Below are positions 4,801-46,556 of a stretch of 64,000 nt of DNA, piece by piece. This stretch comes from Coleofasciculus sp. FACHB-1120 (GTDB lineage Bacteria > Cyanobacteriota > Cyanobacteriia > Cyanobacteriales > FACHB-T130). Under the pieces are notes generated by a model, which worked only from the letters and a program-made list of their open reading frames with translations, ran no database searches and was not told where the DNA came from. Made by a program: the position numbers and the translations under genes. Location: contig NZ_JACJTV010000005.1 of the NCBI RefSeq assembly GCF_014698845.1, positions 186,001 through 250,000 of the forward strand, written 5' to 3'. The first letter of the stretch is position 1. Each line of letters opens with the position of its first letter.

Positions 4801-5550
4801 ACTGGCGACTTAGCTCGCTATTTACCGGATGGAAACATTGAGTTTCTGGGACGAATTGACCATCAGGTAAAAATCCGGGGCTTCCGCATCGAACTAGGGG
4901 AAATTGAGGCGGTGCTAAAGCAGCATCCCGCCGTAGAACAGGCTGTGGTTGTAGTTCGCGAGGATGTGCCTGGTGACAAGCGTTTAGTCGTTTATTCGAT
5001 TTTGAGTCAGCAGCAGGGGAGTAGAGAAGAATCCACTCAATCAAATCTAATGGGTGACTTACGTTCTTTTGTAAAAGCGAAGTTGCCGGAATACATGATA
5101 CCTTCTGCTTTTGTGATTTTAAAGACTCTGCCTTTAACTGCTAATGGGAAAGTGGATCGGGAAAAACTGCCAGCACCTGAGCAAATTCGACCAGAGTTAG
5201 CAGGAACGTTTGTTGCTCCCCGCACCAATGTTGAGGAGATATTAGCTGGAATTTGGGCTGAAGCAATCGGGATTGAACAAGTGGGCATTTACGACAACTT
5301 TTTTGAGCTAGGAGGGCATTCGCTGCTAGCAACTCAGGTGATTTCCCGATTGCGTGACGCCTTTAATGTGGAGTTGCCTTTGCGGCAGTTTTTCGACTTT
5401 CCTACTGTTGCGGATTTAGCAGTCGCGATCGCGCAAAAACTCGCTGAACAGACCGATGAGGAAATGATGGCTCAAATGTTAGCAGAGCTAGATGAAATAT
5501 CGGAGGAAGAAGTTCGAGAAGTTTTGGCTAAGGAAGGAGTAGGCAAATGA
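1873..5550 (+). CDS. NRPS module: interface-type C-like domain, A (Asp), T
   Basis: A 1225-residue NRPS. Residues about 15-440 form a condensation-like domain whose HHxxxDG motif is replaced by LPALCAD (about 147). Such degenerate domains are known as interface domains that recruit beta-hydroxylases, which fits the hydroxylase gene 23 bases upstream. The adenylation domain (about 455-1115) gives pocket residues D, L, T, K, I, G, H, V, G plus the A10 Lys, close to the aspartate code DLTKVGHIGK. The carrier domain has [10 protein letters not shown] (about 1142). There is no release domain, so the chain passes to the next protein, whose ATG overlaps this stop (ATGA). The A domain is swollen by at least four in-frame repeat insertions (about codons 480, 605, 630-670 and 920-960), which might affect activity. 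Confidence 0.93.
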   Translation: MENKVLKMPNDTIQGFQISPQQKRLWGLQQLDSNQDYQARCYLLIEGCLNIEMLKTSLQEIVERHEILRTHFRCLPGMTIPLQVISESSALHWQSIDLSARNSQEQSLQLETFFNSIGHQPCNFEEDSLLQLSLITLSEQKHILLINLPALCADTATLQHLAKEISRTYAACCLGTELDDEIMQYADISEWQNELLEGEDTEAGRNYWEKQDFSALLNIELPLEILVSKQAKFQPQLITQTINSDKVAKITAFVSKYETSVPSFLLTCWTILLWRLTKQSNLVIGTAFDGRKYEELESALGLFSKYLPIESHLEAKLSFGELLQKIHQAQQEVYQWQEYFSWDLNASADSPFFPVCFEFNQATDKCSAAGVTFSIERQYICIDRFKIKLAGVEREDALSIEFHYDANLFDAADIQRLAGQFSTLVDSILETPNVAIRELKILSDVERQQLIEFNNTKIDFPQFQGIHQRFEQQVEKTPDAIALSARSANALVYEGEQLTYQQLNQRANQLAHSLRKLGVAPEVLVGLYLERSLEMVVGLLGVLKAGGAYVPLDPALPLERLAFILQDTQAKVLLTQQHLVTNLPGSTATVFCLDSESELQQESDCATAQPSDRNLETQYISASDIHPSKIPPTPLTKGGYVPPTPPKKGGYVPPTPLKRGSPQAGESEAGGGQANLAYVIYTSGSTGTPKGVAVEHRQILNYLNGILERLDLPDGASFAMVSTFAADLGNTVLFPSLCTGGCLHIISQDRAADAEALSQYFQQHPIDCLKIVPSHLSALLASSHPEFILPRQRLILGGEASSWTLIEKIQNLAPSCRILNHYGPTETTVGVLTYQVESGNLANVSKTVPLGRPLANTQIYILDNHLQPVPIGVSGEVYIGGDNLARGYLNQPELTAKKFISNPFLKNSGVISSPLHEPAFPLNPTPPQPAAPAPLPAGGEGLGVGFYEELTGFDIQSQESEENSEFRIKHSKFLYKTGDLARYLPDGNIEFLGRIDHQVKIRGFRIELGEIEAVLKQHPAVEQAVVVVREDVPGDKRLVVYSILSQQQGSREESTQSNLMGDLRSFVKAKLPEYMIPSAFVILKTLPLTANGKVDREKLPAPEQIRPELAGTFVAPRTNVEEILAGIWAEAIGIEQVGIYDNFFELGGHSLLATQVISRLRDAFNVELPLRQFFDFPTVADLAVAIAQKLAEQTDEEMMAQMLAELDEISEEEVREVLAKEGVGK
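3317..3346 (+). repeat. in-frame GCGCTAAGCGCACGC-type repeat inside an A domain
   Basis: This short GC-rich unit (GCGCTAAGCGCACGCTCCGC and following bases) encodes SARSANALVYEG between the A-domain start and QLTY. The paralogous A domains in this window have only VVFDNQ or VVFENQ there, so the unit looks inserted in frame. Similar units occur outside genes, for example near 29140-29165. Confidence 0.65.
3681..3713 (+). repeat. in-frame GCGATTGCGCTACCGCGCAG-type repeat inside an A domain
   Basis: An inverted-repeat unit that starts CGATTGCG and ends CGGATCGCAA. It adds residues ESDCATAQPSDRN in the linker before the TSGSTG nucleotide-binding motif. The other A domains here lack this segment. 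Confidence 0.6.
3759..3887 (+). repeat. three in-frame C-run/G-run repeat units inside an A domain
   Basis: Three tandem units, each of the form CCCCCAACCCC..(T/A)AAAAGGGGG(G), are translated as repeated VPPTP(L/P)KKGGY-like peptides immediately upstream of NLAYVIYTSGSTG. Identical-looking units are found between genes at 22760-22842. The insertion keeps the reading frame and adds roughly 45 residues relative to the paralogous domains. Confidence 0.8.
4639..4709 (+). repeat. in-frame palindromic repeat before A-domain motif YKTGDLARY
   Basis: Perfect 11-base outer arms AACCCCACCCC (4639-4649) and GGGGTGGGGTT (4699-4709) flank an inner palindrome. The unit is translated as a Pro/Ala/Gly-rich stretch. 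It sits between the NPF motif of the A domain and the conserved YKTGDLARY, the same place as the repeats at 13905 and 55275. Confidence 0.8.
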
Positions 5551-8500
5551 GTAATTTAAGCGAGCGCATCGCCGGACTTTCTCCAGAAAAACGCGAGTTG
5601 CTGCTAAAACGGCTTAATCAGAAAAAAGAGCCGATAGCACCAACCCAAATCCCCCGCCAAAACCGGGACTCTAACTCGTTTCCCTTGTCATTTGCTCAAC
5701 AGCGGTTGTGGTTTTTTGACCAACTAGACCCGGGAAATACCAGCTATAACATTTCTGCGGCTGTGCGCGTTAAGGGAACGCTGGATGCGATCGCTCTGGA
5801 GCAAAGTCTCAACGCAATTATCCAGCGTCACGAAGTCCTACGAACTGCTTTCACAACAGTGAATGGGCAACCTGTCCAAGTCATTACGCCTGATTTTAAA
5901 TTCACGCTTCCACTCATCGATTTGCGGTCACTCTCCAACACCGAACGAGAGCAAGCAGTACGGCAATTCGCCACCGCAGAAGCGCAAAAACCCTTTGACC
6001 TCACACAGGCACCTTTGCTGCGAGTTAGGTTGCTGCATCTGAACGAATTCGAGTATGTGGTGTTATTTACTATGCACCACATCGTCTCAGATGGGTGGTC
6101 AATGGGGATATTTATTCAAGAGTTAGTCACTTTTTATAAAGCTTTCGCTTGTAGAGACGAGATTAATTGCGTCTCTACACTCCTTCCTGAATTAAGTATC
6201 CAATATGCAGACTTTGCAGTTTGGCAGCGACAGTGGCTACAAGGAGAAGTTTTAGAAGCCCAGATTGCTTATTGGAAAAAGCAATTGGGGGGCAATCTTC
6301 CCGTACTAGATTTGCCGACAGACCGACCGCGACCTGCGGTGCAAACCTTCCAAGGCGCTGAGGAAAAATTTGTCTTGTCCAAGGCGTTGATTGAGGAACT
6401 GACTAAAGTAGGTCAGCAGCAAGGAGCGACTTTATTTATCGTTTTGCTGGCGGCGTTCAAAACTCTGCTTTATCGCTACACCGGACAGGAAGATATTTTA
6501 GTTGGTTCGCCAATTGCCAACCGCAACCGCGCCGAACTAGAAGGATTAATTGGCTTTTTTGCGAATACTTTAGTTCTGCGTACTGACTTAGCAAATAATC
6601 CTACTTTTAAGGAGTTGTTAGGACGGGTGCGCGAGGTGGCGCTGGGAGCATACAGCCACCAGGATTTACCCTTCGAGAAGCTGGTAGAAGTGTTGCAGCC
6701 AAATCGGGATTTGAGCCGGAACCCGCTGTTTCAAGTGTTGTTTGCTCTGCGTAATGTTCCCACGCAAACTTTAGAATTGCCGGGAGTTAGGCTCAGTCTC
6801 GAAGAGATGGAGAGCCAAACGGCAAGATTCGATTTTGTACTCAACTTAGCCCAGGAATCAGAAGGTCTTACTGGCATATTTGAGTACAACAAAAACTTAT
6901 TTGATGCCAGCACGATCCAGCGGATGGCAGGACATTTTCAAACCTTGTTAGAAAGTATTGTTGCCAATAGCGATCGCGCTATCTCCACTTTGCCATTTTT
7001 GACGCAACCCGAACAACATCAGTTGTTATGGGAGTGGAACAATACTCACACAAACGACTCGCCGGATCGGTGTCTGCATGAGTTGTTTGAAGAACAAGCG
7101 GAACGAACACCCGATGCTATTGCAGTTGTTTTTGACAACCAACAACTCACCTACGCCGAACTCAATACCAAGGCGCATCAACTCGCACATCATCTACAGA
7201 AACTCGGTGTGAAGCCTGAAGTTTTAGTAGGGATTTGTGTAGAGCGTTCCCTAGAAATGGTAATCGGATTGCTGGGCATTCTCAAAGCAGGGGGAGCCTA
7301 CCTTCCCCTAGATCCAGCCTATCCCCCAGAGCGCCTCGCTTTCATGTTAGAGGATGCTCAAGTTCCGGTATTATTAACCCAAAAACGCCTGTTAAATCTC
7401 CTACCCTCCCAGAATGCTCAGGTTGTATGCCTGGACAGCGATTGGGGAAATCAACAAATCCACAGTCAAAATCCAATCCCAAATCCCTCAAACTTAGCTT
7501 ATGTTATCTATACTTCCGGCTCAACCGGACGACCCAAAGGCGTACAAATTTCCCACGCCTGTGTCGTCAACTTCCTAATTTCTATGCGCCAGAAATTAGG
7601 AATAAATCAGCTAGATATTTTATTAGCTGTCACCTCCTTATCTTTTGATATTGCGGCGCTAGAAATATTCCTCCCCATAACTGTAGGCTCTCGCGTTGTT
7701 GTAGTCAGCCGTGAAATCGCCTCTGACGGGGCACAGTTGTTAACAACATTGACCGATTCTGGGGCGACCATCATGCAAGCAACGCCTGCGACTTGGCGAA
7801 TGCTTTTGGCAGCAGGATGGCAGGGGAACAAGAACTTGAAAATCCTCTGTGGTGGCGAAGCCTTACCGCGACAACTCGCCGCTCAATTGCTGGTGCGGGG
7901 CGATCGCTTGTGGAACTTGTACGGCCCTACGGAAACTACCATTTGGTCTACTATCCATCTGGTGGAAAGTAGGGATGCGATTTCTATCGGTCGTCCGATT
8001 GCTAATACGCAAGTTTACATCTTAGACCGCTCTCTACAGCCTGTCCCTGTGGGTGTTACGGGTGAACTGTATATTGGCGGGAAAGGGTTATCCAGAGGCT
8101 ACCTAAATCGACCTGAACTAACAGCCGAGAAGTTCATTGCCAATCCGTTTTTAGACCAATCCGAAAAGTCGGAATTACTGTATAAAACTGGAGATTTAGC
8201 GAGATATCTCCCGAATGGTGAATTGGAATATTTGGGACGCATCGACCACCAAGTTAAAGTGCGAGGCTTCCGGATTGAACTGGGCGAAATTGAAGCGGTA
8301 CTCAGCCAACATCCAGCCGTGCAGCAAGCGGTAGTGATTGCTAGAGAGGCTAATTCTAGCGACAAGAATTTGCTTGCTTATGTCGTACCGATGCCAGCGG
8401 AAGCTGCAACAACACCCGCACAACTGCGCTCATTTCTCAAGGAGAAGCTACCCGATTACATGGTGCCTTCTGCCTTTGTACTGCTAGAAGCAATTCCTTT

Positions 8501-32746: not shown

Positions 32747-35700
32747 ATGGAACTCATCCAACGGACTACGCTTCTCTACCAAGCCGGGAGTTCAGATAAA
32801 GTCTACGAAGTCGATCTCTGCAAGACAGGTGAAAACCGCTACCTCGTTAACTTTCGCTACGGACGACGCGGCACAACGCTCAAGGAAGGTACAAAGACGG
32901 TTCAGGCTGTACCTTTAGCCCAAGCGCAGCGAGTGTTCGATAAGCTGATTGACTCCCAAATTCAGAAGGGCTATCGGGATGTCACCGCTGGGGCAGTTAG
33001 CGAGGCGGCTGCACCCGCACCAGTCCAAACTGCAAGTAATGTACCAGTCACCAGCGACCCACGCCACCAAGCCATCCTCAACCGTTTGGCGAACCGGGAC
33101 AATCGAAAATGGCCTCTGGAACGGGCGATTTGGCGGGCTGGCGAACTTAAAATCGGGGAAGCTACGCCGTTGTTAATTCAACTCATTAGAACTGGCGAAC
33201 CTTTGAGAGATTACTGCATCGCTTGGGCGTTGGGTTGGTGTGGGGATGAAAGTGCCATTCCCTTTGTCAGAGAACTTTCCCAGCATAAATCGGTTGCTGA
33301 ATTCGTCCGCCGCATCGCCTGGGAAGCACTATTTAAATTATCAGATGAACAGACACAAGGGCAGATGCGTTCTGAGAAGATAGAACAACTGCCCTTAGAG
33401 TTGCGGGATTTAGCCCGAAATGGAACAGCAGAAGCATTTGCAACTACACTTCGCGATTATTTAAATAGCAGCGACTACAGGCGTTTTGCCGTCCTCGATA
33501 CTATTTATCAAATCGATAACGAGTACGTGCGTCCAGCACTACTTGATATTTTATGCGAAACACCTTTTAAATCTAACTACTTCCAGCGAATTCGCCATAT
33601 TTTCAAAATGGCTGAATATCGCCATGATGCAGAAGTTTTTGGCATCCTTGCTTATGCCTTTGAGAAAGAACCGGGGACGTTTAATAATAAACGTACAGGT
33701 TGGCAATGGGACTCGGCAAGACGCGAATATTATAGGACCGGGCAACGTCGTTACACTGAAGAACTCAAGAGTCCGCAGTCAAATAAAGTTTACAGCCAAC
33801 AAACTCGTGAATATCTGCGGCGGCGAGTTTGGCGTACTCTTAAAACTTTGGGTGAAGAAAGCGATTCTAACTATATCAATCTTGCAGTCAATATTCTCCT
33901 ACAGTATTCGGATGATGACGCTCAACCAGCCAAGCAGTCAACTTTCAGGAGATGGAACGGACAACGCCGTTCCTATGAAAGCTTTACTAGAGGTTGGGAT
34001 ACTTATGCGGGCTATGTAATTTTTAATCATATTCTCTACGAAAACAGTCCCCGCTATGCCTCTCATCATAAAGCGTGGCGTTGTCGAGACGGTTACAAAC
34101 CAGGAGATCCAGAACCGAAAGTTAGAGAAGAAGCTTTTCCCGAACTTTGGCAGCAAAACCCAGCAGCACTTGTACAGTTATTAATAGAAAGTGATTGCCG
34201 TCCGGTGCATCATTTTGCAGTTAAGGCGTTGCGCGTCTGCAAAGAATTTTGCGATCGCCTTGACACAGACACATTAATCAAATTCCTGAATAAACCCTAC
34301 GCAATAACTGCTGAATTCGGATTTTTACTGGCACGCGATCGCTACAACCCCGCCCAACCCAACAGCGAGTTAGTTTTGGCTCTTGCTAATTGTGCATTCC
34401 AAGAAGCACGTACACAAGCCTATCGCTGGATCGAACAGCAACGAGAATTCTTTTTTGAATCCAGTGACTTTATCGCGGGTTTAGTGACCAGTCAACAAGC
34501 TGATACCCGTTCTTTTGCGCGAAGGTTACTAAGTTCATCAATTTTAACCGATACAACCGCCAGGGTACTCATCGGAAGAATCATTGCTGCTGTGTTGGTA
34601 CTAGAACCTACGCAAACAGATATGTCAAGAGAAATTAGTGAAACTTTGTTGCTCTGTTTTGCGCCGCAACTGTGTAATTTGGGGTTGGGTGTAATCCTTG
34701 ATTTACTTAATCACCCGATGCCGGAGATTCAAGAATTAGGCGCAAGAATTCTATTAAATCATGATATTCGTGCTGTTGATCTACCGCCAGATTTAATTGA
34801 ATTACTTCTTTCCTCTCCTTATGAGTCGGTGCGGGGGATTGGGGTGAGGATTTTTGGACAACTACCTGATGAGAGATTATTAAGCGATCGCATCCTCATC
34901 GTCTCAATGGCAATTAACGCTGTCGCTGATATTCGTAACGCAATCCGTCCAGTGATTCGACGTTTGGCAGCTAATAATCCAAATTTTGCTACCGAGTTAG
35001 CATCTGATTTTATTGATGTCTTAATTACGCCAGAGAGACACGAAGGTGTCCACAAGGATGTAGTACAACTGATGCGAGAAGACATACCAGGATGGATGTC
35101 TAATATCAGCAAAGAACGCGCGATGCAGCTCCTTCGTGCTAAATCTTCAGTCGCACAGGAATTAGGTGGTTTGGTATTGAGAGAAAATAGCGATCGCTTT
35201 CTCCCTGACTTCGAGACAAGTGAGATTGTCAAGCTGGCAAATCACGAAATTTTATCAGTGCGTGAAGCAGCAAGAGAAATGTTTTTAAAAACCTTAAACC
35301 GTATCCGCACCAACTCCCAAGAAATGTTATCAGCAGTGCGGCTACTAGAGTCAAAGTGGGATGATTCGCGAGAATTTGCATCTAGAATTTTTAGCACAGA
35401 TTTCACTAATGAAGATTGGACACCAGAAGTAATGGTTAGCGTCTGTGACAGCATTCGCGAAGATGTTCGTTCTTTTGGGCGCGATTTAGTAACTCGCAAC
35501 TTCAAAGAAACCGATGGACAAGAATACCTACTCAAATTCAGCGAACATCCCTCAACAGATATGCAGACCTTTGCTACTAACTATCTAGAAAACCATGCTG
35601 TAAATAATTCCCAACGGTTGCGAGACCTAACGCCATACTTTATCAGCGTCCTGTCCGGTGTCAATCGGGGAAGAGTTTCCAAACAAAGAATATTTGCTTT

Positions 35701-35890
35701 TCTAGATACCGAAGCCCAAAAAAGCGAGGAAGCTGCACAAATTGTCACTGAAATTCTCACCCGACAATCTGTCACAATGGCAATCGGCGACAAAGCCACA
35801 GCAATTCAGATAATGCTGAAAATTCAAAAAGCTTACCCTCAGATATCCTTACCGATTCAGGTAAAAGCCATCTCCCAAATCAGAAACTAA
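32747..35890 (+). CDS. WGR-domain protein with long HEAT/ARM repeat array, retron-associated
   Basis: A 1047-residue protein. Residues 1-85 form a WGR-type domain (KVYEVDL, then NFRYGRRGTTLKEGTKTV), a nucleic-acid-associated module best known from PARPs and MolR-type proteins. Residues about 105-1045 are helical repeats of HEAT/ARM character, for example WRAGELKIGEATPLLIQLI followed by DYCIAWALGWCGDESAI. There is no obvious enzymatic motif. It is followed 162 bases later by the winged-helix/SWIM gene, then by the retron RNAs and reverse transcriptase. As I recall the published retron classification, an ARM-fold protein plus a winged-helix/SWIM protein define type XIII, so this is probably one accessory protein of that system. 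Confidence 0.82.
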   Translation: MELIQRTTLLYQAGSSDKVYEVDLCKTGENRYLVNFRYGRRGTTLKEGTKTVQAVPLAQAQRVFDKLIDSQIQKGYRDVTAGAVSEAAAPAPVQTASNVPVTSDPRHQAILNRLANRDNRKWPLERAIWRAGELKIGEATPLLIQLIRTGEPLRDYCIAWALGWCGDESAIPFVRELSQHKSVAEFVRRIAWEALFKLSDEQTQGQMRSEKIEQLPLELRDLARNGTAEAFATTLRDYLNSSDYRRFAVLDTIYQIDNEYVRPALLDILCETPFKSNYFQRIRHIFKMAEYRHDAEVFGILAYAFEKEPGTFNNKRTGWQWDSARREYYRTGQRRYTEELKSPQSNKVYSQQTREYLRRRVWRTLKTLGEESDSNYINLAVNILLQYSDDDAQPAKQSTFRRWNGQRRSYESFTRGWDTYAGYVIFNHILYENSPRYASHHKAWRCRDGYKPGDPEPKVREEAFPELWQQNPAALVQLLIESDCRPVHHFAVKALRVCKEFCDRLDTDTLIKFLNKPYAITAEFGFLLARDRYNPAQPNSELVLALANCAFQEARTQAYRWIEQQREFFFESSDFIAGLVTSQQADTRSFARRLLSSSILTDTTARVLIGRIIAAVLVLEPTQTDMSREISETLLLCFAPQLCNLGLGVILDLLNHPMPEIQELGARILLNHDIRAVDLPPDLIELLLSSPYESVRGIGVRIFGQLPDERLLSDRILIVSMAINAVADIRNAIRPVIRRLAANNPNFATELASDFIDVLITPERHEGVHKDVVQLMREDIPGWMSNISKERAMQLLRAKSSVAQELGGLVLRENSDRFLPDFETSEIVKLANHEILSVREAAREMFLKTLNRIRTNSQEMLSAVRLLESKWDDSREFASRIFSTDFTNEDWTPEVMVSVCDSIREDVRSFGRDLVTRNFKETDGQEYLLKFSEHPSTDMQTFATNYLENHAVNNSQRLRDLTPYFISVLSGVNRGRVSKQRIFAFLDTEAQKSEEAAQIVTEILTRQSVTMAIGDKATAIQIMLKIQKAYPQISLPIQVKAISQIRN

Positions 35891-36052: not shown

Positions 36053-37693
36053 ATGGAATTTAACTACGCCTACAACGGAAGTACATCTGTTAATGAAAGC
36101 GGTGCAAACACCCAGATGTCCTTTTCTCCCGATATTAAACGCGAACCCACGTACTTTATTGGAGAATTGCGTCAGAATGTCGCTTTTCGGGAAGCGATTA
36201 GCGCCTTACACGATGTTGTCGTCTCTGATATGCGGTTCAAACCCAAAGACAAAACGGCATATAAAGAATGGGCAGCAAAACAACAGGATCTAGACTGGCA
36301 ACTCATCGCCGCGCAACACCAAGAAGTTGCGAATCAAATCAAGCCCTTGCAGGATGAACTCAATCAATTAAGCCAGCATAGTTACCAGCGGCGGGAATCT
36401 TTCTACAAAGCACAACGCCGCTATTTTAATTACCTTTTTCAAAAAGACCGCGATGCTTGGTTTGTTCTCGATCCGGTGATTACAGTTCATCCCGATGAAG
36501 TATTTTTTGAATGTTTCAGCCAGGATGAATCAAGTTATGGTCGTCTCGGTGCCAGCTACGAAGTTTTTAAAAACATCAACGAGTTTGCCTGCGGTACGAC
36601 TAATATTGATTATTCAGCGGCACTTTACGACGAGTTTCAGAAAATCCGCAGTTACAAAAATACCAAATTTGAAATAGATCCATCGGGTTTTGAAGTTCAA
36701 ACTACGCACGAAGAAACTTTTAAAGAAGTCAAAATCGATTTACCCGACAGTTGGGTAAGAGGTTTTTTGCAAGTTAGTTCTGCAATGTCTTTACCAGCAA
36801 CGCGAGTTGATTTGCATCCGATGGATATTTACAATATGTGCTTTGTGCTGCGTCGCCACAAGGAAAAACAAGGGCCTCGCAGTATGCGCTACCATCTTAA
36901 ACCTGGGGAACCCGTGCGGATAACGTTCGATCCGTGGGGAATTGAAATCGTTTGTGCGCGATCGCTCTACACTGGATCGCAATCACAAGAAATCCGCGTT
37001 TGGGGACGCCGCCGCCTCCACATCCTCGAACGTCTCATCCCCGTCGCCAAAAAGTTTACCGTTCACCTACTCGGTACGGGTATGCCTTCCTTCTATGTCG
37101 CTGACTTAGGCGATATGTCTTTTACCCTCGGTTTATCGGGATGGACGGCAAACGACTGGGCGCAATCTGGTAACTTTGACTTGATGGCACCCCGCGCCGA
37201 CATCGACAAATGGACGCAGCAACAAATTTTCGAGGCGCTGAAGAAGAATTGGGTAGAAAGTCCAGACTCGCTTGCGGAACGCCTTGGTTTAAACCGTGCC
37301 GTAGTTCTCGGTGCTTTAAGTGCTTATACGCAAGCCGGACGTGCAATTTACGACTTAAACAAGCAAGTTTATCGAGTGCGGGAACTGACGCGAGAACCTT
37401 TACCGATGGAACGCCTGCGCTTTGCCAACGAGCGAGAAGAGAAGGCAACCCGTTTCTTGGTTTACAATGCTGTGCAGGTGACTAATGTTACCAGCGATGC
37501 CACGAAAGCGTTTAGTCTGCAAGGTAATGTTTCAGACAAAGATAAAACCTTGAATCCTTCATTGACAGTTGACGCAGATGAGCGTATAATAGCCGCAGAA
37601 TGTACTTGCAACTGGCATCAACAGAATAAGCTGTACAAAGGCCCTTGCGAACACATTCTGGCGTTGCGAATGCAACACGCCCGTCAGTATTGA
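36053..37693 (+). CDS. winged-helix SWIM zinc-finger protein, retron-associated
   Basis: A 546-residue protein. The C-terminal end carries a SWIM zinc finger, CTC-x(11-13)-C-x-H (CTCNWHQQ...GPCEHILAL, about residues 519-540). A winged-helix-like segment precedes it at about 398-450 (SLAERLGLNRAVVLGALSAY, then YDLNKQVYRVREL). The N-terminal 370 residues include a helical part (about 60-130) and a beta-rich part that I cannot assign. SWIM domains bind DNA or proteins. The gene lies between the WGR-HEAT gene and the first retron-like RNA, which starts 3 bases after its stop. E. coli yehQ-type proteins associated with WGR and VWA genes offer a distant parallel. Confidence 0.82.
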   Translation: MEFNYAYNGSTSVNESGANTQMSFSPDIKREPTYFIGELRQNVAFREAISALHDVVVSDMRFKPKDKTAYKEWAAKQQDLDWQLIAAQHQEVANQIKPLQDELNQLSQHSYQRRESFYKAQRRYFNYLFQKDRDAWFVLDPVITVHPDEVFFECFSQDESSYGRLGASYEVFKNINEFACGTTNIDYSAALYDEFQKIRSYKNTKFEIDPSGFEVQTTHEETFKEVKIDLPDSWVRGFLQVSSAMSLPATRVDLHPMDIYNMCFVLRRHKEKQGPRSMRYHLKPGEPVRITFDPWGIEIVCARSLYTGSQSQEIRVWGRRRLHILERLIPVAKKFTVHLLGTGMPSFYVADLGDMSFTLGLSGWTANDWAQSGNFDLMAPRADIDKWTQQQIFEALKKNWVESPDSLAERLGLNRAVVLGALSAYTQAGRAIYDLNKQVYRVRELTREPLPMERLRFANEREEKATRFLVYNAVQVTNVTSDATKAFSLQGNVSDKDKTLNPSLTVDADERIIAAECTCNWHQQNKLYKGPCEHILALRMQHARQY

Positions 37694-37695
37694 CG

Positions 37696-37945
37696 AATCA
37701 CGCGCACCTAATCAGTTGGTAAACAGCCTTGCAATCCGGACGATGGATCGTCGTCCTTGCGTTTAGCCTAGCCATGCACCACTAGCCTGCTCTTAACTGT
37801 GCGGTCATTCAGGGCTACCCCCTTTTCCGGTGGGACTTCCCTGAAGTGTAAGAAGGGGGTAGCCCTGAGACCGCTTGAGTTGAGCAATCTAGTCCTGAGA
37901 TGTTTACGAAGGGGCAACCAACTGACAGCTGCGCGTGATTTTTTT
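37696..37945 (+). ncRNA. retron-like msr-msd RNA, copy 1
   Basis: The 5' arm AATCACGCGCA (37696-37706) is perfectly complementary to TGCGCGTGATT (37930-37940), the a1/a2 pairing expected of a retron RNA, and a T7 run (37939-37945) closes it. Next come a hairpin GGACGA..TCGTCC wrapped by GCAA..TTGC (37731-37760, msr-like) and a long stem: GCGGTC (37801-37806) with GACCGC (37869-37874), then 16 perfect pairs, 37809-37824 with 37853-37868 (msd-like). Blocks 37712-37766 and 37883-37945 match copy 2 with 1 mismatch in 55 and 4 in 63. The base after a1 is CCTAATC instead of TTAGC, so the priming guanosine seems lost; this copy may be inactive. Confidence 0.8.
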
Positions 37946-37958
37946 CTCAATTGATGTT

Positions 37959-38699
37959 TCAGTTCTCAGGTAATCCCACGCCGTGATACGCATAAATACT
38001 GAAACCATCGGCAAACTCCATTGCTGGTTCTTCTTCAGCGTGAAGAAGTTGCTGATGATCGTAGAGCAGTTTTGTGGGGCGATCGCACACAATGCAAACA
38101 AATTCGCAATTATCTTCGCTAGTATGTTTAACAAATATATATATCCAGCCGCAACTTTTGACGAGCGACTGCAACACTTCCCATTCTCTCTGCTCGCTTT
38201 CATTGAGAGAGCAATTTAAGACAGAAAAACAGAAGTCAATAAAAATACATTGAACAAGCCAGTCTTGAGGATTCACGTCGTGAGTAAAGTTGGTAACGGC
38301 CCTCCTTGAGATTTCCGGTTGCTGGTAAAACCGATCCAATAGTGGGTTCCACAGCCTACTCAACAGCTCATCCATTGGCTCAAGCAGTTGGTCGCAAAGT
38401 TGGCTAGTAACAGGGTCGGACAGTTGCTCAAACAATTCGTCTTCTAACTTAGCCAACCAGTCAATCTGGTCTTCCTCTTCCCAGTCCGGAAAGTAAACAT
38501 CAATATCCTTCAAAAAGCTATAAAGGCTATCGAAAAAAAGAATTTTAGGTTCTTCATTCCAACAAACAGTGCAGGCAACATTTACGGCTTCAGCAGCTTT
38601 TTGACGAGCGATTGGCTCGGTGGAAAGTGCCAGGGATATCCATTTTTCTATGTAAACCGGAATCAGAGCTTCTTGCTCTGGAGTAAGCTTGTTAATCAA
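37959..38699 (-). pseudogene. truncated DUF6745-like cyanobacterial protein between the two retron RNAs
   Basis: An open frame of 246 codons starting at TTG 38699, with LTPEQEALIPVY, EPIARQKAAEAV, EPKILFFDS, CGWIYIFV, VCDRPTKLLYD and EPAMEFADGFSIYAYHGVGLPE. These are landmarks I associate with large cyanobacterial proteins ending in a DUF6745 domain. In those proteins the chain continues for roughly another hundred residues after the HGVxLPE motif. Here it stops two residues later, 14 bases from the end of RNA copy 1. I read it as a gene cut by insertion or rearrangement of the retron RNA. It may still be expressed; the middle part is rich in acidic residues. Confidence 0.65.
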
Positions 38700-38934
38700 G
38701 GTTGCCGACCTCGTAAGAAAATCTTTGCCTACTCTAATAGTGAGCGAGGCTTTCCCTTGGGGTCACAAATTTTTATTTTCCCATATCCAGCATCTAGCCG
38801 GAAGATTTCCTTTTTCAGTGGAAGAGTTGAACTTGCCTGAGTAGTTAAAACTTTTCAACCACCTTCTAAGTCGCTACATATAGCGTTATAGTGCGACATC
38901 TACACTACTAATAGCGTTTTTACAAAAATACTGG

Positions 38935-38940
38935 TAGAAT
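38935..38940 (+). promoter_or_regulatory. possible -10 element for RNA copy 2
   Basis: TAGAAT at 38935-38940 lies 7 bases before the predicted 5' end of RNA copy 2. No convincing -35 element is seen. The position fits direct transcription from the start of the a1 arm. Confidence 0.35.
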
Positions 38941-38946
38941 AATCCG

Positions 38947-39235
38947 ATCGCGCGCCTTAGCTCAATTGGTAAACAGCCTTGCAATCCGGACGATGGATCG
39001 TCGTCCTTGCGTTTAGTTTAGACACGCATCACTAGACTGCTCTTTACTAAGCGGAGCCACCCCGGAGTATTACGGTTTGGTTTCCGTGAAATACTAGCCT
39101 ACCCAGAGCATTGTGGGTGAGTTTCACCAACTAATGACTCCAAAATTGTTAGGGGGTGGCTCCGCTGAGTAGAGCAATCTAGTCCTGAGGGGTTTACGAA
39201 GGGGCAACCAACTGATAGCGGCGCGTGATTTTTTT
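38947..39235 (+). ncRNA. retron-like msr-msd RNA, copy 2 (adjacent to the reverse transcriptase)
   Basis: The a1 arm ATCGCGCGCC (38947-38956) pairs with a2 GGCGCGTGAT (39220-39229) with one G-U wobble, followed by a T7 run. Immediately after a1 comes TTAGC (38957-38961), the context in which known retrons place the branching guanosine (here G38960). The msr-like hairpin GGACGA..TCGTCC is identical to copy 1. The msd-like stem is GCGGAGCCACCCC (39051-39063) with GGGGTGGCTCCGC (39153-39165), 13 perfect pairs, and its 89-base loop contains further small hairpins (AGTATTACGG..CCGT..AATACT; ACCC..GGGT). An outer stem, CTAGACTGCTCT with AGAGCAATCTAG, embraces it. It ends 147 bases before the RT start, the usual retron order. 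Confidence 0.85.
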
Positions 39236-39381
39236 ATATTCTCTCGTTCCCAAGCCGATCGTGGGAATGATTTTTTGGAGGCTCCAGCCTCCATTAGTTC
39301 AAGGTTTCAGGGATTATTGTGCTGTTGACATAAAGTACATATGTACTATAATTGCGGAAACGCATCGCTACTTCTACAAAT

Positions 39382-40785
39382 ATGTCAGATCAGCCTCGTA
39401 CCCGCCAGGAACTCTACGATCGCATCCGACAAATGGGCAAAGAGGAATTCATCCTCGAAGAGATGATACGTTATGGGTTCTGGCCTGCACAAGGCGAGAT
39501 ACCCCAAGATCCCGCCGATGACATTCGGCGGATGGGAGAGATCCGGCGAGAACTTGATGAACTGCGACAGCAGAGTTCGCGTCTTCACAACGAAAAGGAA
39601 CTCCGCAAGCAGCTACTCAAGCAACGCCTCGCCGAGTCGCGGCGAAAGCGACAGGAGACGAAAGAACGGCGGGAACGGGAAAGGCAAGAACGAGCGGAAG
39701 ATTGGCGACAAAGAAAAGAGCGAGAAATCCTTTATCTCGGTGAAGATGTCTCAGGCGGACTCAACTATACTGAGTGCGATGAGGAAAGGTTGCGAAGTTA
39801 TGGATTACCTTTGTGCGGTACACCCTACGAAATTGCCGCTGCAATGGGAATTACTGTGGGACAATTGCGCTTTCTCGCTTTTTCCCGCAAGACTTCGACA
39901 ATTTCTCACTATATCCGCTTCAAGATTCCTAAAAAAACGGGTGGCGAACGGTTGATTTCGGCACCGATGCCACGCTTGAAGCAGGCGCAGCATTGGATTT
40001 TGGGTAATATTTTGGAAAAGCTAGAACTGCACGATGCAGCTCATGGTTTTAGACGCGATCGCTCTATCGTCAGCAACGCTCAACCTCACGTAAAACGTGA
40101 CGTAATTATCAACTTTGACCTGAAAGATTTCTTTCCCTCTATTTCCTATAAGCGAGTTAAAGGACTTTTTCACTCATTCGGTTATTCGGAAGCTGCGGCA
40201 ACAATTTTCGGGTTGCTGTGTACCCAACCGGATATCGAGGAGGTTGAATTAGACGGCAAAACTTATTATGTAGCCCTCACAGAGCGACATTTACCCCAAG
40301 GTTCGCCAGCTTCTCCAGCAATTACGAATCTAATGTGTCGCCGCTTAGATAGACGACTTACCAGTATGGCTGACGAATTGGGTTTTGTTTATACTCGCTA
40401 CGCTGACGACTTAACTTTTTCAGCTTCTGGTGACAGTCTCCGAAATATCTGCAACATTCTCAAACGCACTCAGTCAATCGTGGCTCATGAAGGGTTTACG
40501 ATTAACGAACAGAAGACTAGAATATTGCGGAAAAATCGGCAACAGGAAGTTACTGGAGTTGTGGTGAATGATTATCCGAATATTTCTAAAAAAGAGCTAA
40601 AACGTTTTCGTGCTACTTTGTTCCAAATTGAGAAAGATGGCTTGGAAGGTAAGCATTGGGGAAATTCTAATAATGTGATGTCTTCGATTCAGGGTTATGC
40701 CAATTTTGTCGCTATGGTTAATCCGCAAAAGGGTGTTGAGTTTCAAGAGCAAATTCGACGAATTCGAGATAAATACAGATGCTAA
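39382..40785 (+). CDS. retron-type reverse transcriptase with long charged N-terminal extension
   Basis: A 467-residue reverse transcriptase. RT motifs in order: FDLKDFFPSI, the retron-specific NAxxH (SNAQPH), LPQGSPASPAITNL, catalytic YADD in TRYADDLTF, and the retron-specific VTG in EVTGVVVND. Together they place it with retron RTs, away from group II intron or DGR enzymes. Residues about 50-125 form a strongly charged, Arg/Glu-rich helix or coiled coil that typical retron RTs of about 320 residues lack. The start is ATG 39382; a TTG at 39352 would add ten residues. It should reverse-transcribe the RNA encoded just upstream to make multicopy single-stranded DNA. Accessory proteins are likely the WGR-HEAT and SWIM proteins upstream. 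Confidence 0.92.
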   Translation: MSDQPRTRQELYDRIRQMGKEEFILEEMIRYGFWPAQGEIPQDPADDIRRMGEIRRELDELRQQSSRLHNEKELRKQLLKQRLAESRRKRQETKERRERERQERAEDWRQRKEREILYLGEDVSGGLNYTECDEERLRSYGLPLCGTPYEIAAAMGITVGQLRFLAFSRKTSTISHYIRFKIPKKTGGERLISAPMPRLKQAQHWILGNILEKLELHDAAHGFRRDRSIVSNAQPHVKRDVIINFDLKDFFPSISYKRVKGLFHSFGYSEAAATIFGLLCTQPDIEEVELDGKTYYVALTERHLPQGSPASPAITNLMCRRLDRRLTSMADELGFVYTRYADDLTFSASGDSLRNICNILKRTQSIVAHEGFTINEQKTRILRKNRQQEVTGVVVNDYPNISKKELKRFRATLFQIEKDGLEGKHWGNSNNVMSSIQGYANFVAMVNPQKGVEFQEQIRRIRDKYRC

Positions 40786-41012: not shown

Positions 41013-42851
41013 ATGAAAGCAACTTCCTCCCTGAGTCAATCGCTTATTGCAGCCGCTACCCCGTCCACTGTAGACTTGATTGTTAGTTTCCAGGCTGAAG
41101 AAGAAACGCGCAACAAAGTACCGCGTCTTCCGCTTAATTTGAGTGTAGTAATTGATAGATCGGGTTCGATGGCGGGAGCGCCGCTTAAGAATGCTATTCA
41201 AGCTGCACAAAGGCTTGTGGAATATTTGACCCCGGAGGATTTTCTTTCAGTTGTAATATATGACGATACGCCGGAAACAATTCTTCCGCACCAACTGGTT
41301 CAGGATAAATCTGCCATTCGTTCGCTAATTGGTAGGGTGAAAGCTGGCGGATGTACTAACTTGAGTGGCGGTTGGCTAATGGGATGCGACAATGTAAAAT
41401 CTCAGCAGTCCACAGAACGCATCAATCGCGTTTTATTATTAACAGATGGACAGGCGAATGTTGGGATTACCAATTCTCAGGTATTAATTAACACTGCAAG
41501 ACAACAAGCTGAACAAGGAATCATTACAACAACTTTAGGGTTTGGAACTTATTTTAATGAAGATTTGCTCATCGGTATGGCAAATGCTGCCGGGGGAAAC
41601 TTCTATTTCATTCAATCACCTGACGATGCTACTGATGTATTCAGAATTGAACTAGAAAGCCTCACGTCTGTTGTCGCGCAAAATCTGACGGTGACGCTGC
41701 AACCAGAAGATTCTGTAAAAATAACCGGGATTCTCAACAATTACCGATCCAATCTGATTGGCAACAACCTGGAAGTTTTCTGCGGCGATGTTTATGAGGT
41801 AGAAAATAAGCAGCTAGCCGTAGAATTGCCAATTCCTCCGCAAACAAATATTGGGGTGATAAATATTGCCACCATTGCTTATAAATATCAAGCGGTTGTC
41901 GATGGCAGCATTCAACAATTCACTAACGAAATCCCAATTAGTATAACGGTTGCTGATGCTGAATCAGCCAGCAAGGTGCAGCCAGATGCAGCGGTTGTGG
42001 AGCAAGCAAGTAAGCTGAGGATTGGTAAGGTAAAAGATGAAGCGATCGCACTCGCTGACAAAGGAGATTATACCGCCGCATCCCAGAAACTTCGCAAGAC
42101 GATTGAGGATCTCAAGCTCAAAGCATTGCATGAATCCTTTGAAGTTGCCGAAGAGATGGAACAACTGGATTATTATGCACAACGGCTGGAAAGCAAAAAG
42201 TTTGATAGTATCAGTCGTAAGGAGATGCGAGATCAATCTTACCAGGCTCTTACACGCGATCGCGGCGATTTAAAATTGCGCGGACTTGCTGCGAGTGCCA
42301 ACAGCTTACAAGCTGTTTCCAGCGTGGATGAGGGAGTTTTGGTGAAATGCGATCGCGTTAGTGGTAAGTTGCGGATTCACGTCATTTCTGACGGTTACAA
42401 TCCTAATTTCAACGTGCAATTCCCCCGCAATATTCGGGAAGAAGGTGTCACCTACATCGTTGATGAAATCAATCTATCTGCTGACGGTAGCTTTTATCGC
42501 GTCTCCGGTAACATTCGCCGCTTAGTGCAACCCGGACAGGAACGCGCCGCATCATCTCAAAATGGTACGTCTTCTTCCAGTCCAAAACGACAAAAGCTGA
42601 ATGCACCTGCTTCTGCTGCTGATTTAGAAACAATTGATACTGTAGGTGATGGAGTTCTCGTGCAGTGCGTGAAAGAAGGCAGTAAATTGAGAGCGAGAGT
42701 CGTGTCCGATGGGTACGATCCTAACTACAACATCCGCTTTCCCCGCGACATTCGAGAAGAAAACGTTCTCTATGTTGTTGATGAAGTGGAAGAGGCAAAG
42801 AATGGCGGATCTTATGTCGCTTATGGGAAGATTCGTAGGTTAGTTCAGTAA
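41013..42851 (+). CDS. VWA-domain protein with two C-terminal copies of an unnamed ~65-residue domain
   Basis: A 612-residue protein. A von Willebrand A domain (about 35-230) has the MIDAS motif in VIDRSGSMAG (about 48) and the later Thr and Asp in GGCTNLSGG and LLTDGQANVG. A beta-rich segment and a helical part with alternating Lys/Glu (about 330-420) follow. The last 175 residues contain two copies (about 438-510 and 544-612) of a domain with the pattern (E/D)GVLV.C, SDGY(N/D)PN, (F)PR(N/D)IRE(E), YVVDE, and ending IRRLVQ. The same domain ends the WGR protein at 45132-46556. The gene follows the retron RT by 227 bases on the same strand, so it may belong to the system, perhaps as a metal-dependent adaptor. 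Confidence 0.85.
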   Translation: MKATSSLSQSLIAAATPSTVDLIVSFQAEEETRNKVPRLPLNLSVVIDRSGSMAGAPLKNAIQAAQRLVEYLTPEDFLSVVIYDDTPETILPHQLVQDKSAIRSLIGRVKAGGCTNLSGGWLMGCDNVKSQQSTERINRVLLLTDGQANVGITNSQVLINTARQQAEQGIITTTLGFGTYFNEDLLIGMANAAGGNFYFIQSPDDATDVFRIELESLTSVVAQNLTVTLQPEDSVKITGILNNYRSNLIGNNLEVFCGDVYEVENKQLAVELPIPPQTNIGVINIATIAYKYQAVVDGSIQQFTNEIPISITVADAESASKVQPDAAVVEQASKLRIGKVKDEAIALADKGDYTAASQKLRKTIEDLKLKALHESFEVAEEMEQLDYYAQRLESKKFDSISRKEMRDQSYQALTRDRGDLKLRGLAASANSLQAVSSVDEGVLVKCDRVSGKLRIHVISDGYNPNFNVQFPRNIREEGVTYIVDEINLSADGSFYRVSGNIRRLVQPGQERAASSQNGTSSSSPKRQKLNAPASAADLETIDTVGDGVLVQCVKEGSKLRARVVSDGYDPNYNIRFPRDIREENVLYVVDEVEEAKNGGSYVAYGKIRRLVQ

Positions 42852-42913: not shown

Positions 42914-43417
42914 TTATCCAAGATTCTTTTTCACATCCGCAAGTGTCACCATCAGCGTCAAGGGATGAACCGGAGAGGGCATGAAACCACACTTATCCAC
43001 ATAGAATCTTTTCGCCTCTTCATCAAGTGCGTGAACCATAATAGCTCTAATCCCGGCAATCTCTGATGCTTGTAAAGTACGCAATATTGCATCCTTGACC
43101 AAACCTTTACCGATTCCCTTCCCTCTGTGGTTAATATCAACTGCAAGTCTGCCCAATACCATAACTGGAATTGGATCGGGCATATTCCTTTTGATTTTGC
43201 CAGGAGCCTCACTATGAATGACACTACCATTCGCTAAACTGTAGTACCCCACTACCCGATCTCCACAGCAGACAACGTATGTACGAGACGCTCCGGTTGC
43301 CTCGTTTTCAAGAGCGCGTTTCCTCAACCAGTCATTTAGAGATGGCTTACCACAATCGAATGTCTCTACATCGTGTGTCTGCTGAAGGGTTTCTGGTGGG
43401 GTGTATTTTATTCCCAA
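42914..43417 (-). CDS. GNAT acetyltransferase toxin of a DUF1778/GNAT pair
   Basis: A 167-residue GNAT-fold protein with FDCGKPSLNDWLRKRA near the N-terminus and the acetyl-CoA loop RLAVDINHRGKGIGKGLVKDA (the family's R/Q-x-x-G-x-G/A). The later ALDEEAKRFYVDKCGF is also typical. Toxins of this class (TacT, AtaT, KacT) acetylate charged tRNAs and block translation. The start is a TTG at 43417, overlapping the end of the antitoxin gene by 10 bases; no ATG lies close by. The pair stands between the VWA gene and the Uma2 gene. Confidence 0.88.
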   Translation of the reverse strand: MGIKYTPPETLQQTHDVETFDCGKPSLNDWLRKRALENEATGASRTYVVCCGDRVVGYYSLANGSVIHSEAPGKIKRNMPDPIPVMVLGRLAVDINHRGKGIGKGLVKDAILRTLQASEIAGIRAIMVHALDEEAKRFYVDKCGFMPSPVHPLTLMVTLADVKKNLG

Positions 43418-43698
43418 GGGGTTGGTGCCTGAAGCAACTCAATTAACTTTTCATTTTTCGTTGGAGAGGTGTCAAGAGCCTTGTTAAAAGCTTTCCACTG
43501 TTCATCACTAAGACGAAACAATCTGCGATCGAGCAAAGCCTCTTCTGCCGCTCGATATGCCGCATCTAGCATGAAAGCACTCCGAGTTTTACCAGAAAGA
43601 CTCGCCGCACTATCTATGAGGTCGAGCTGATTTGGCTCAATTCTCATATTGACAACCTCGGATCGCTTAATTTTTTCGGTTTTATCAAGTACTGCCAT
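43408..43698 (-). CDS. DUF1778 (TacA-type) antitoxin
   Basis: A 96-residue protein. The N-terminal ribbon-helix-helix part (VNMRIEPNQLDLIDSAASLSGKTRSAFMLDAAYRAA) binds operator DNA, and the C-terminal tail (LSDEQWKAFNKALD) is the stretch that neutralises the GNAT toxin in known pairs. It is the first gene of the two-gene operon. A TATAAT-containing palindrome lies 35 bases upstream of its start. Confidence 0.9.
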   Translation of the reverse strand: MAVLDKTEKIKRSEVVNMRIEPNQLDLIDSAASLSGKTRSAFMLDAAYRAAEEALLDRRLFRLSDEQWKAFNKALDTSPTKNEKLIELLQAPTPWE

Positions 43699-45131: not shown

Positions 45132-46556
45132 CTACACTAATTTCTGAATATCCCCAAAAGCCCGATAGAAACCACCGCGAGAAGATTCGCGCACCTCTTC
45201 CACCAGATAACGCGCACCATCGGAGCGAATATCTTGAGGAAATTGTACTTTCCAATTGGGATTGTAACCAGGAGAAACAGCGCGTATTCTTAACTTCCCG
45301 TCTTCTTTGAAACATTCCACAATCACTCCCTGAGTGGCGTTTGATGTCGTTTCCAAAGTATTAGAAGGAACGGCTGGTGCAACGGCGGTAGGTGCTTTAA
45401 TATTAATAGCCTGGGGAACCGTACCCGCTTGTGCTGCTTTGATGGCTGTTTCCCCCGCATCAATGCAAGCAAGAGAACCATCGGTGGTGACGATGTAGAG
45501 ATGGTCATCTATAAACTGCATGGAGAAGGCGGAACCGCAGCCAGTGGCAAGTTTCCAAAGACGCTCTCCTTGTTGACTAAAACAATAAATCGAGGAGCAA
45601 TTGTCGCCGGCAAAGACATATTTACCTTCTTCAGCAGTGGCGCAAGAATAAACAGGGGCATCACATTGATAAATTGTGCTAATTTCCCCTCTCTTGGTAA
45701 AGCAATAAACTTGATTATCACTGGTACTAGCATATACAAATGCTTCTTCTTGCCAGCCAAATAGTACCTCACCGCGAGTTTTCTGGTTCCAGATCGTCTT
45801 TCCATCTTCCCAGTCATACATTGTCACGCCACTGCTGTGACCGTGATAAATGCCAATTTCGTCGCAGCGCACCATCCAGCCATACTCACCACTACTTTTT
45901 TTAGTCCATTGAGATTCATCTTCGTGATTAATCGTTGTGACATTACCAGCATCATCAGAAACGCCGAGAATTGCATCTTTGATATCAAGCCAGAAGATAT
46001 TTACATCGGGGGCAATTTCATAAGCAACACGGGGTATTTTGCCTGTTAAATCGTATACTTTACCATCATCACATCCCGCATAAAGCCAACCTTCATCCGC
46101 GACAATACACTTCACGCCGTCAGGAAGACGAAACTGATTTTGCACAATTCCCGTATGACTGAGAGCGAAAATCTGACCTGCTTGATTTCCAACCCAGCAC
46201 CGAGAATTGTCGATGAAAATGCCAAAAGCAGGGGAAGAAGAGGCAAATTTCCAAACTACAGGTGCTTGGTTTGCAGTTGAGCGATCGCTCTTTATTTCCC
46301 GTCGAGTCACGGGACGTTTGCTCCTTACTCCCATAACCGCTGGTTCGTAACCTTTCTTCAGTTTCTCGTTAATCTTTTTCGTCGCTTCAGCTTTGGCTTT
46401 TTCTGGCGTTGGATAGGTTTTTACCTGAGTTTGTCCTGAGTCGCCAATGCGACCGTAGCGAATTAATACTTCCGTACCGTTGACAATCACTTCATAAAAT
46501 TTGTGAGAACTACTCTCTGACTCTGACAATTCTAGATACGTTTTATCTTGGATCAT
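45132..46556 (-). CDS. WGR domain + beta-propeller-like repeats + unnamed C-terminal domain
   Basis: A 474-residue protein. Residues 1-80 form a WGR domain (YLELSESESSSHKFYEVIV, then VLIRYGRIGDSGQTQVKTY), homologous in layout to the N-terminus of the WGR-HEAT protein. Residues about 100-385 contain repeated blade-like units with Trp/Asp motifs (WVGNQAGQIFALS, YAGCDDGKVYDL, YVFAGDNCSSIYCFS), typical of a PQQ/WD-like propeller. After an Ala/Pro linker, residues about 404-474 are the same domain that occurs twice in the VWA protein (GVIVECF, PGYNPNW, VQFPQDIR, YLVEEV). It faces the VWA gene from 4 kb away. It may be a partner in the same retron-linked system, but direct evidence is lacking. Confidence 0.8.
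   Translation of the reverse strand: MIQDKTYLELSESESSSHKFYEVIVNGTEVLIRYGRIGDSGQTQVKTYPTPEKAKAEATKKINEKLKKGYEPAVMGVRSKRPVTRREIKSDRSTANQAPVVWKFASSSPAFGIFIDNSRCWVGNQAGQIFALSHTGIVQNQFRLPDGVKCIVADEGWLYAGCDDGKVYDLTGKIPRVAYEIAPDVNIFWLDIKDAILGVSDDAGNVTTINHEDESQWTKKSSGEYGWMVRCDEIGIYHGHSSGVTMYDWEDGKTIWNQKTRGEVLFGWQEEAFVYASTSDNQVYCFTKRGEISTIYQCDAPVYSCATAEEGKYVFAGDNCSSIYCFSQQGERLWKLATGCGSAFSMQFIDDHLYIVTTDGSLACIDAGETAIKAAQAGTVPQAINIKAPTAVAPAVPSNTLETTSNATQGVIVECFKEDGKLRIRAVSPGYNPNWKVQFPQDIRSDGARYLVEEVRESSRGGFYRAFGDIQKLV

Follow-up and report, generated by a model that had tools for sequence, protein, structure and literature searches.

Retrons are described as one reverse transcriptase (RT), one non-coding RNA (ncRNA) and one or more effectors. 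The locus analysed here raises the question of whether a single retron RT may act on two RNAs with different msd parts, as a preliminary description of the DNA had proposed. It lies in a window of 64,000 nucleotides (the whole stretch of DNA that was analysed), part of contig C5 of a cyanobacterial genome of 6.2 Mb.

A type XIII retron with two complete ncRNAs

The order of the locus is WGR, SWIM, ncRNA 1, DUF6745, ncRNA 2 and RT, all on the plus strand except DUF6745 (Table 1). The next-best PADLOC model for the RT reaches only 324 bits, against 671 for RT_XIII, which places the enzyme in the XIII clade, and the retron RT motifs NAxxH, YxDD and VTG are present at residues 232, 340 and 390, respectively. 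The type XIII accessory genes WGR-HEAT and SWIM are both recognised by their PADLOC models, the WGR_XIII protein being a putative effector or partner of the retron. Retron types are numbered, reportedly, after Mestre et al. 2020. For both copies a structured msr-msd ncRNA with complementary a1/a2 adjoins the RT, and a whole-genome match search found no other type XIII RT in this genome. The locus is a type XIII retron, a phage-defence element, with two complete ncRNAs beside a single RT.

Table 1 Features of the retron locus, in window coordinates.
Feature	Position	Strand	Basis
WGR + HEAT-repeat protein (WGR_XIII)	32747..35890	+	PADLOC WGR_XIII 1294 bits; Pfam WGR, HEAT_2
SWIM zinc-finger protein (SWIM_XIII), second retron accessory protein	36053..37693	+	PADLOC SWIM_XIII 822 bits
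Sigma-70-type promoter TTGACA-17-TATAAT	37562..37590	+	12/12 match; inside SWIM gene 3' end, ~105 nt upstream of ncRNA 1
ncRNA 1 (copy 1, short class): a1 37696-37731, hairpin 37738-37756, msd centre 37802-37873, a2 37910-37940, T7 end	37696..37945	+	R1 match 192.9 bits
Candidate branch (priming) guanosine, ncRNA 1	37731	+	Inner end of a1 stem; role inferred
DUF6745 protein gene, between both ncRNAs	37959..38699	-	Pfam PF20530
Possible extended -10 element TGGTAGAAT, immediately 5' of ncRNA 2	38933..38941	+	Weak; read from sequence
ncRNA 2 (copy 2, long class): a1 38945-38981, hairpin 38988-39006, msd centre 39052-39164, a2 39200-39231, T7 end	38945..39235	+	R1 match 137.6 bits; long-class alignment A5
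Candidate branch guanosine, ncRNA 2	38981	+	Position equivalent to ncRNA 1; role inferred
Promoter TTGACA-16-TATAAT before RT gene	39325..39352	+	12/12 match; conserved in L005
Retron reverse transcriptase, type XIII	39382..40785	+	PADLOC RT_XIII 671 bits; NAQPH, YADD, VTG motifs

The two RNAs were said to have common ends and unrelated centres, and almost all of that description was borne out. Blocks 37712-37766 and 38962-39016 differ at 1 of 55 bases, and blocks 37883-37945 and 39173-39235 at 4 of 63; each copy has its own a1/a2 arms, forming duplexes of -36.5 (copy 1) and -31.8 kcal/mol (copy 2), and both have the GGACGA-type hairpin (GGACGATGGATCGTCGTCC), the T7 end and also the lower msd stem. 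Identity between the msd centres is 43.0%, compared to 43.9 +/- 2.4% for shuffles. The perfect stem of 13 pairs claimed for copy 2 was recovered, whilst the 22 pairs claimed for copy 1 were not, its longest perfect stem having 16 pairs (18 in the fold). Both copies fold far better than dinucleotide shuffles (z -8.4 for copy 1 and -6.9 for copy 2; 0 of 200 shuffles as good). The candidate branch guanosine, the inferred site of 2'-5' priming, is found at a1's inner end, within a (U/A)GC motif; it is invariant in all 39 aligned short-form RNAs, and in the long-class alignment too.

Neither the window nor the locus contains an Rfam family match at gathering score; a mir-616 match (E 0.079, 24 bits against a cut-off of 100) was dismissed as chance. 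A dispersed repeat unlinked to RT genes was likewise rejected, since within its own genome the shared blocks are found only at this locus, and, of the 20 genomes in the class sample that carry the RNA, 19 also encode the RT.

The two RNAs differ in their upstream signals. The TTGACA-17-TATAAT element is the probable promoter of ncRNA 1; it overlaps coding sequence, and its hexamers and spacing are identical in L005, L183, L184 and L006. No strong promoter was found for copy 2, where the possible extended -10 element lacks a -35 hexamer and was missed by the promoter scan. The RT has a promoter of its own, as the element at its start lies 3' of both ncRNAs.

Downstream of the RT, the window encodes a VWA protein (41013-42851) and a WGR-beta-propeller protein (45132-46556), with a C-terminal segment that by eye is common to both; the VWA gene is retained beside the retron in L005, L006, L183 and L184. 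A GNAT acetyltransferase and a TacA-like antitoxin, likely a toxin-antitoxin pair, are encoded at 42914-43698 on the minus strand, just downstream of the retron. In three other cyanobacteria a gene whose sequence start looks RNase III-like by eye lies directly 5' of the RT (L008 8139-8825, L009 8117-8803 and L015 8122-8895), and its product could process the ncRNAs there.

Arrival and class of the second RNA

Close relatives have one RNA only, namely the same-genus genome G437 and the same-family genomes G438 (locus L005) and G439. The L005 locus matches the window up to 37942, continues with 78 bp, and matches again from 39236 onward; in G439 window-left and window-right sequence meet directly at the only RNA, whose 3' block matches both copies. 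The window carries one extra repeat unit of 1,290 bp, comprising the DUF6745 gene and the long RNA; a second 3' block closes the unit, the outcome that recombination at the ncRNA would be expected to give. DUF6745 is a passenger. A role as a retron part was rejected, as the gene is missing from every other retron locus fetched and is one of several in its genome, where six further, only partly alike matches were found.

Such an arrival leaves room for a reading in which only copy 1 works, copy 2 being a by-product of the insertion, DUF6745 and an ncRNA of foreign origin having entered as a passenger unit by recombination at the repeat, with the RNA now silent or being lost. Copy 2 and DUF6745 are absent from the three close relatives, which manage with one RNA, so that the second RNA is not essential; the genes between paired RNAs elsewhere are varied rather than conserved; and the want of a strong promoter 5' of copy 2 both favours silence and counts against two templates, whilst the T7 at the copy 1 end may stop read-through into copy 2. 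We nevertheless consider this reading unlikely, as copy 2 retains the defining features of its RNA family together with a stable fold, and the class to which it belongs has a history of its own.

This family was delineated by taking related RTs from 78 contigs and a sample of 390 cyanobacterial genomes and searching their loci for the RNA, R1 being the covariance model built from a 39-sequence alignment. Covariance-model folding, the check put forward in the preliminary description, assigned both copies to one covarying family. Across the 39 sequences 91.4% of cells pair, compared to 74.8% when shuffled and 33-48% for slid structures; two-sided changes occur in 40 of 52 pairs, and covariation scores 0.464, compared with 0.169 after shuffling. 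The short-form core, which starts immediately ahead of the branch region and stops immediately past CGAAG, measures 192-195 nt in most members, a fixed length that spans cyanobacteria to Nannocystis, Haloferula and Motilimonas.

Copy 1 belongs to this common short class and copy 2 to a separate long class with a core of 233-243 nt. Beyond the window, long-class RNAs were found in G380 (L157 5777-6015), G451 (L214 10272-10506) and G650 (L215 5518-5760), and at L040, L042 and L045. Their lower msd arms, AGCCACC with GGTGGCT, are recognisable across lineages; the 5' and 3' arms covary, pairing being kept via two-sided changes across five lineages. The centre of window copy 2 is 60-66% alike to other long-class centres, versus shuffle level against its own short copy. 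At L040, L042 and L045, which are Calothrix/Dulcicalothrix loci, no ncRNA other than the long-class RNA was found with the type XIII RT, WGR and SWIM. Copy 2 is therefore not a decayed duplicate, given that its class recurs beside short copies in three more genomes and as sole RNA at three loci, and it is a credible RT template, given that such RNAs are the sole ncRNA of those three retrons.

A 220-nt copy in G444, long class by its length, was rejected as such, being a short-class RNA with an enlarged msr hairpin. Shortened or rearranged ncRNA relatives (weak R1 matches) stand beside more distant RTs at L100, L101 and L102, the msd of L102 being nearly gone.

Recurrence, centre replacement and dispersal of type XIII RNAs

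Searching genomes with related RTs for paired RNAs, as had also been suggested, revealed that the paired layout recurs across families. Tandem pairs sit between SWIM and RT, or 3' of SWIM where the RT is elsewhere. Short-plus-long pairs occur in the window and G380 (short first) and in G451 and G650 (long first), and pairs of short RNAs with different stems in L027, L035, L047, L059, G444, G545 and G727; in every paired locus the flanks are more alike than the centres. Hassallia byssoidea VB512170 and Calothrix sp. NIES-4105 are among the strains that carry pairs. Nine of the 55 RTs examined are linked to a tandem pair, with nine state changes on the RT tree, at least five of them forced by starred (supported) branches; pairs have thus been gained or lost repeatedly. 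An order-level scan detected the RNA in 80 of 391 genomes, 13 of which have at least two matches of 90 bits or more, counted as strong, and ncRNAs often outnumber RTs within a genome. Each genome with a pair that was examined has a single full type XIII RT, apart from HK-06 (L035), with two RTs and four RNAs; the G444 genome has an extra distant RT-like match at 38%. A conserved cargo between paired RNAs was considered and rejected, as the intervening genes differ by locus (one ORF family is found in both L038 and G545).

The centres can change rapidly inside nearly constant flanks. Between copy 1 and the RNAs of L005 and G437, 1 of 121 flank positions differs as compared to 22 of 74 in the centre (Fisher p 1e-9), and the stem is re-paired; the centres of L005, G437 and G439 are identical to one another. 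These comparisons show that the msd stem of copy 1 was replaced in the window lineage. The second copies of L027 and L035 are 98% identical in the flanks and 56% in the centre, and flanks that are 100% identical accompany centres of 84% (L031 and L030) or 82% (L090 and L087). Many pairs with near-identical flanks, in Nannocystis, are also near-identical in the centre, so centre change is episodic. The flanks group the short with the long RNA of G650 (96/90), which is suggestive only of recent gene conversion of flanks between both copies, and a single origin of the long class is not rejected by flanks alone (AU p 0.26). The data suggest, but do not prove, that msd parts are actively swapped. 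An msd stem starting GGTACTTCACC and ending GGTGGTACC is common to L033 8751-8945, L059 8661-8853 and L035 8660-8853, where the flanks differ; exchange of msd cassettes may have left these traces.

The RNA need not be encoded close to the RT. Of 45 RT-bearing genomes, 44 contain the RNA, which frequently lies away from the RT. Three hard cases were measured on large contigs: Moorena bouillonii, with the RT at 1.86 Mb and SWIM plus ncRNA at 7.56 Mb; Calothrix NIES-267, with the RT at 3.05 Mb and the ncRNAs at 1.86 Mb; and ESFC-1, with RT, ncRNA and SWIM at 2.30, 3.41 and 3.46 Mb. If such systems work, an RT megabases from the ncRNA must act on RNA made elsewhere. Split type XIII retrons, with the RT unlinked from ncRNA and WGR/SWIM, were also seen in G405, G411, G433, G341 and G051 (L158, L159, L180, L175 and L181), several with their parts megabases apart on one contig.

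At five Calothrix-type loci with the RT elsewhere (L169, L170, L171, L172 and L222), an additional WGR-HEAT gene, accompanied by neither SWIM nor RT, has its own type XIII ncRNA of 186-190 nt just downstream, the unit at L169 spanning 4164-8099. These units lend some weight to the idea that type XIII ncRNAs travel with separate effector genes, one RT supplying all, and that copy 2 works with a different effector; the window, too, has WGR-beta-propeller and VWA genes downstream. This seems to us a rather remote prospect, given that the neighbour of copy 2 is DUF6745, in which no effector features were seen, and that paired RNAs elsewhere lie mostly between the same SWIM and RT genes. A few type XIII RNAs are solitary among housekeeping genes, and no neighbour genes common to these solo ncRNAs were seen by eye. 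Solo RNAs far from RT or effector genes could be regulators, and the RT-facing flanks are present in copy 2, but the notion that both RNAs are transcribed and that copy 2, without being a template, binds the RT or WGR/SWIM as RNA, regulating the copy 1 complex or serving as its decoy, is the most improbable of those considered, as the long class is the only RNA at complete Calothrix-type retrons and copy 2 retains the branch G and a1/a2.

A probable two-template retron and its precedents

The proposal that one RT may act on two RNAs with different msd parts is supported by the sole RT, the long-class RNAs that stand alone elsewhere, the recurrence of pairs and the constant flanks; transcription and reverse transcription of both RNAs are inferred. 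We consider it quite probable that this type XIII retron has one RT serving two template RNAs, with two msDNAs and wider sensing as the outcome. Its first part, the two templates, is firmer than the whole and is likely; its second, the two sensors, is plausible without yet being probable, and sensing is itself an inference.

According to current thinking, a toxic effector is restrained by the retron msDNA until phage infection disturbs that msDNA (PMC12548924). Common to both RNAs are the RT-recognition parts (a1/a2, msr hairpin, lower msd stem and branch G), and on our proposal the RT would prime on each, yielding two branched msDNAs with different stem-loops. Each msDNA-RT complex may then restrain the WGR/SWIM effector pair, a role inferred by analogy with studied retrons, until a phage function disturbs the msDNA and WGR/SWIM is released. 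With two msds, one effector could answer two kinds of disturbance, the fast-changing stem of the short class and the more constant stem of the long class each reading one. In the window lineage the second RNA came as the 1,290-bp unit with DUF6745, joined at the ncRNA repeat, and the copy 1 msd stem was replaced also.

Searches of open full texts revealed no description of a retron RT with two ncRNAs; subscription papers and supplements were not covered, and an earlier mention is not excluded. Known type XIII retrons have the same three proteins in the same order, with an ncRNA upstream of the RT that belongs to the same family as the relatives' ncRNAs; they have one ncRNA, whereas the window has two of different msd class. 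At Retron-Sen1 (Se72) a second RNA element has likewise been suspected, a hairpin-containing ORF having been proposed as a possible alternative msr (PMC6868368), in contrast to the two full msr-msd units of the window.

So far as the citing literature describes them, the nearest precedents are the retrons of Nannocystis exedens, namely the Ne160 repeats and a partial msDNA copy. In Retron-Nex1 (Ne160) the msr/msd repeats are duplicated and no RT lies near them (Lampson and Rice 1997, as cited in PMC6868368); like the window, it has more than one msr/msd, there for a distant RT. In that secondary account the repeats are duplicates, whilst the msds of the window are of two unrelated classes kept across lineages. 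The N. exedens RT at L049, which we infer to be Retron-Nex2 (Ne144), has WGR, SWIM and an ncRNA of the window's family. The N. exedens DSM 71 genome also has a separate partial msd copy far from any RT (L178 9073-9194; 87% over 117 nt, model 50-171). Judging by its title alone, in the reference list of PMC6868368, a 2002 report concerned a partial msDNA copy in N. exedens; the L178 sequence fits such a retrotransposed copy and may link the old observation to the type XIII RNA family. This extra copy is only part of an msd and lies far from the RT, unlike the complete, adjacent copies of the window.

More broadly, type XIII retrons may be modular multi-sensor systems, in which one RT, often encoded elsewhere, serves several ncRNAs, and msd-centre classes are replaced as cassettes inside constant flanks, changing the msDNA sensor repertoire; we regard this generalisation as evenly balanced. 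Should a single RT make several msDNAs, then the msDNA is a sensor part that can be exchanged, and the rapid change of msd stems between fixed ends would be explained. An RT accepting several templates in trans would be of interest for retron-based DNA production in cells, and the paired loci are natural experiments, with the same RT and effector and two msds, for asking what each msd senses.
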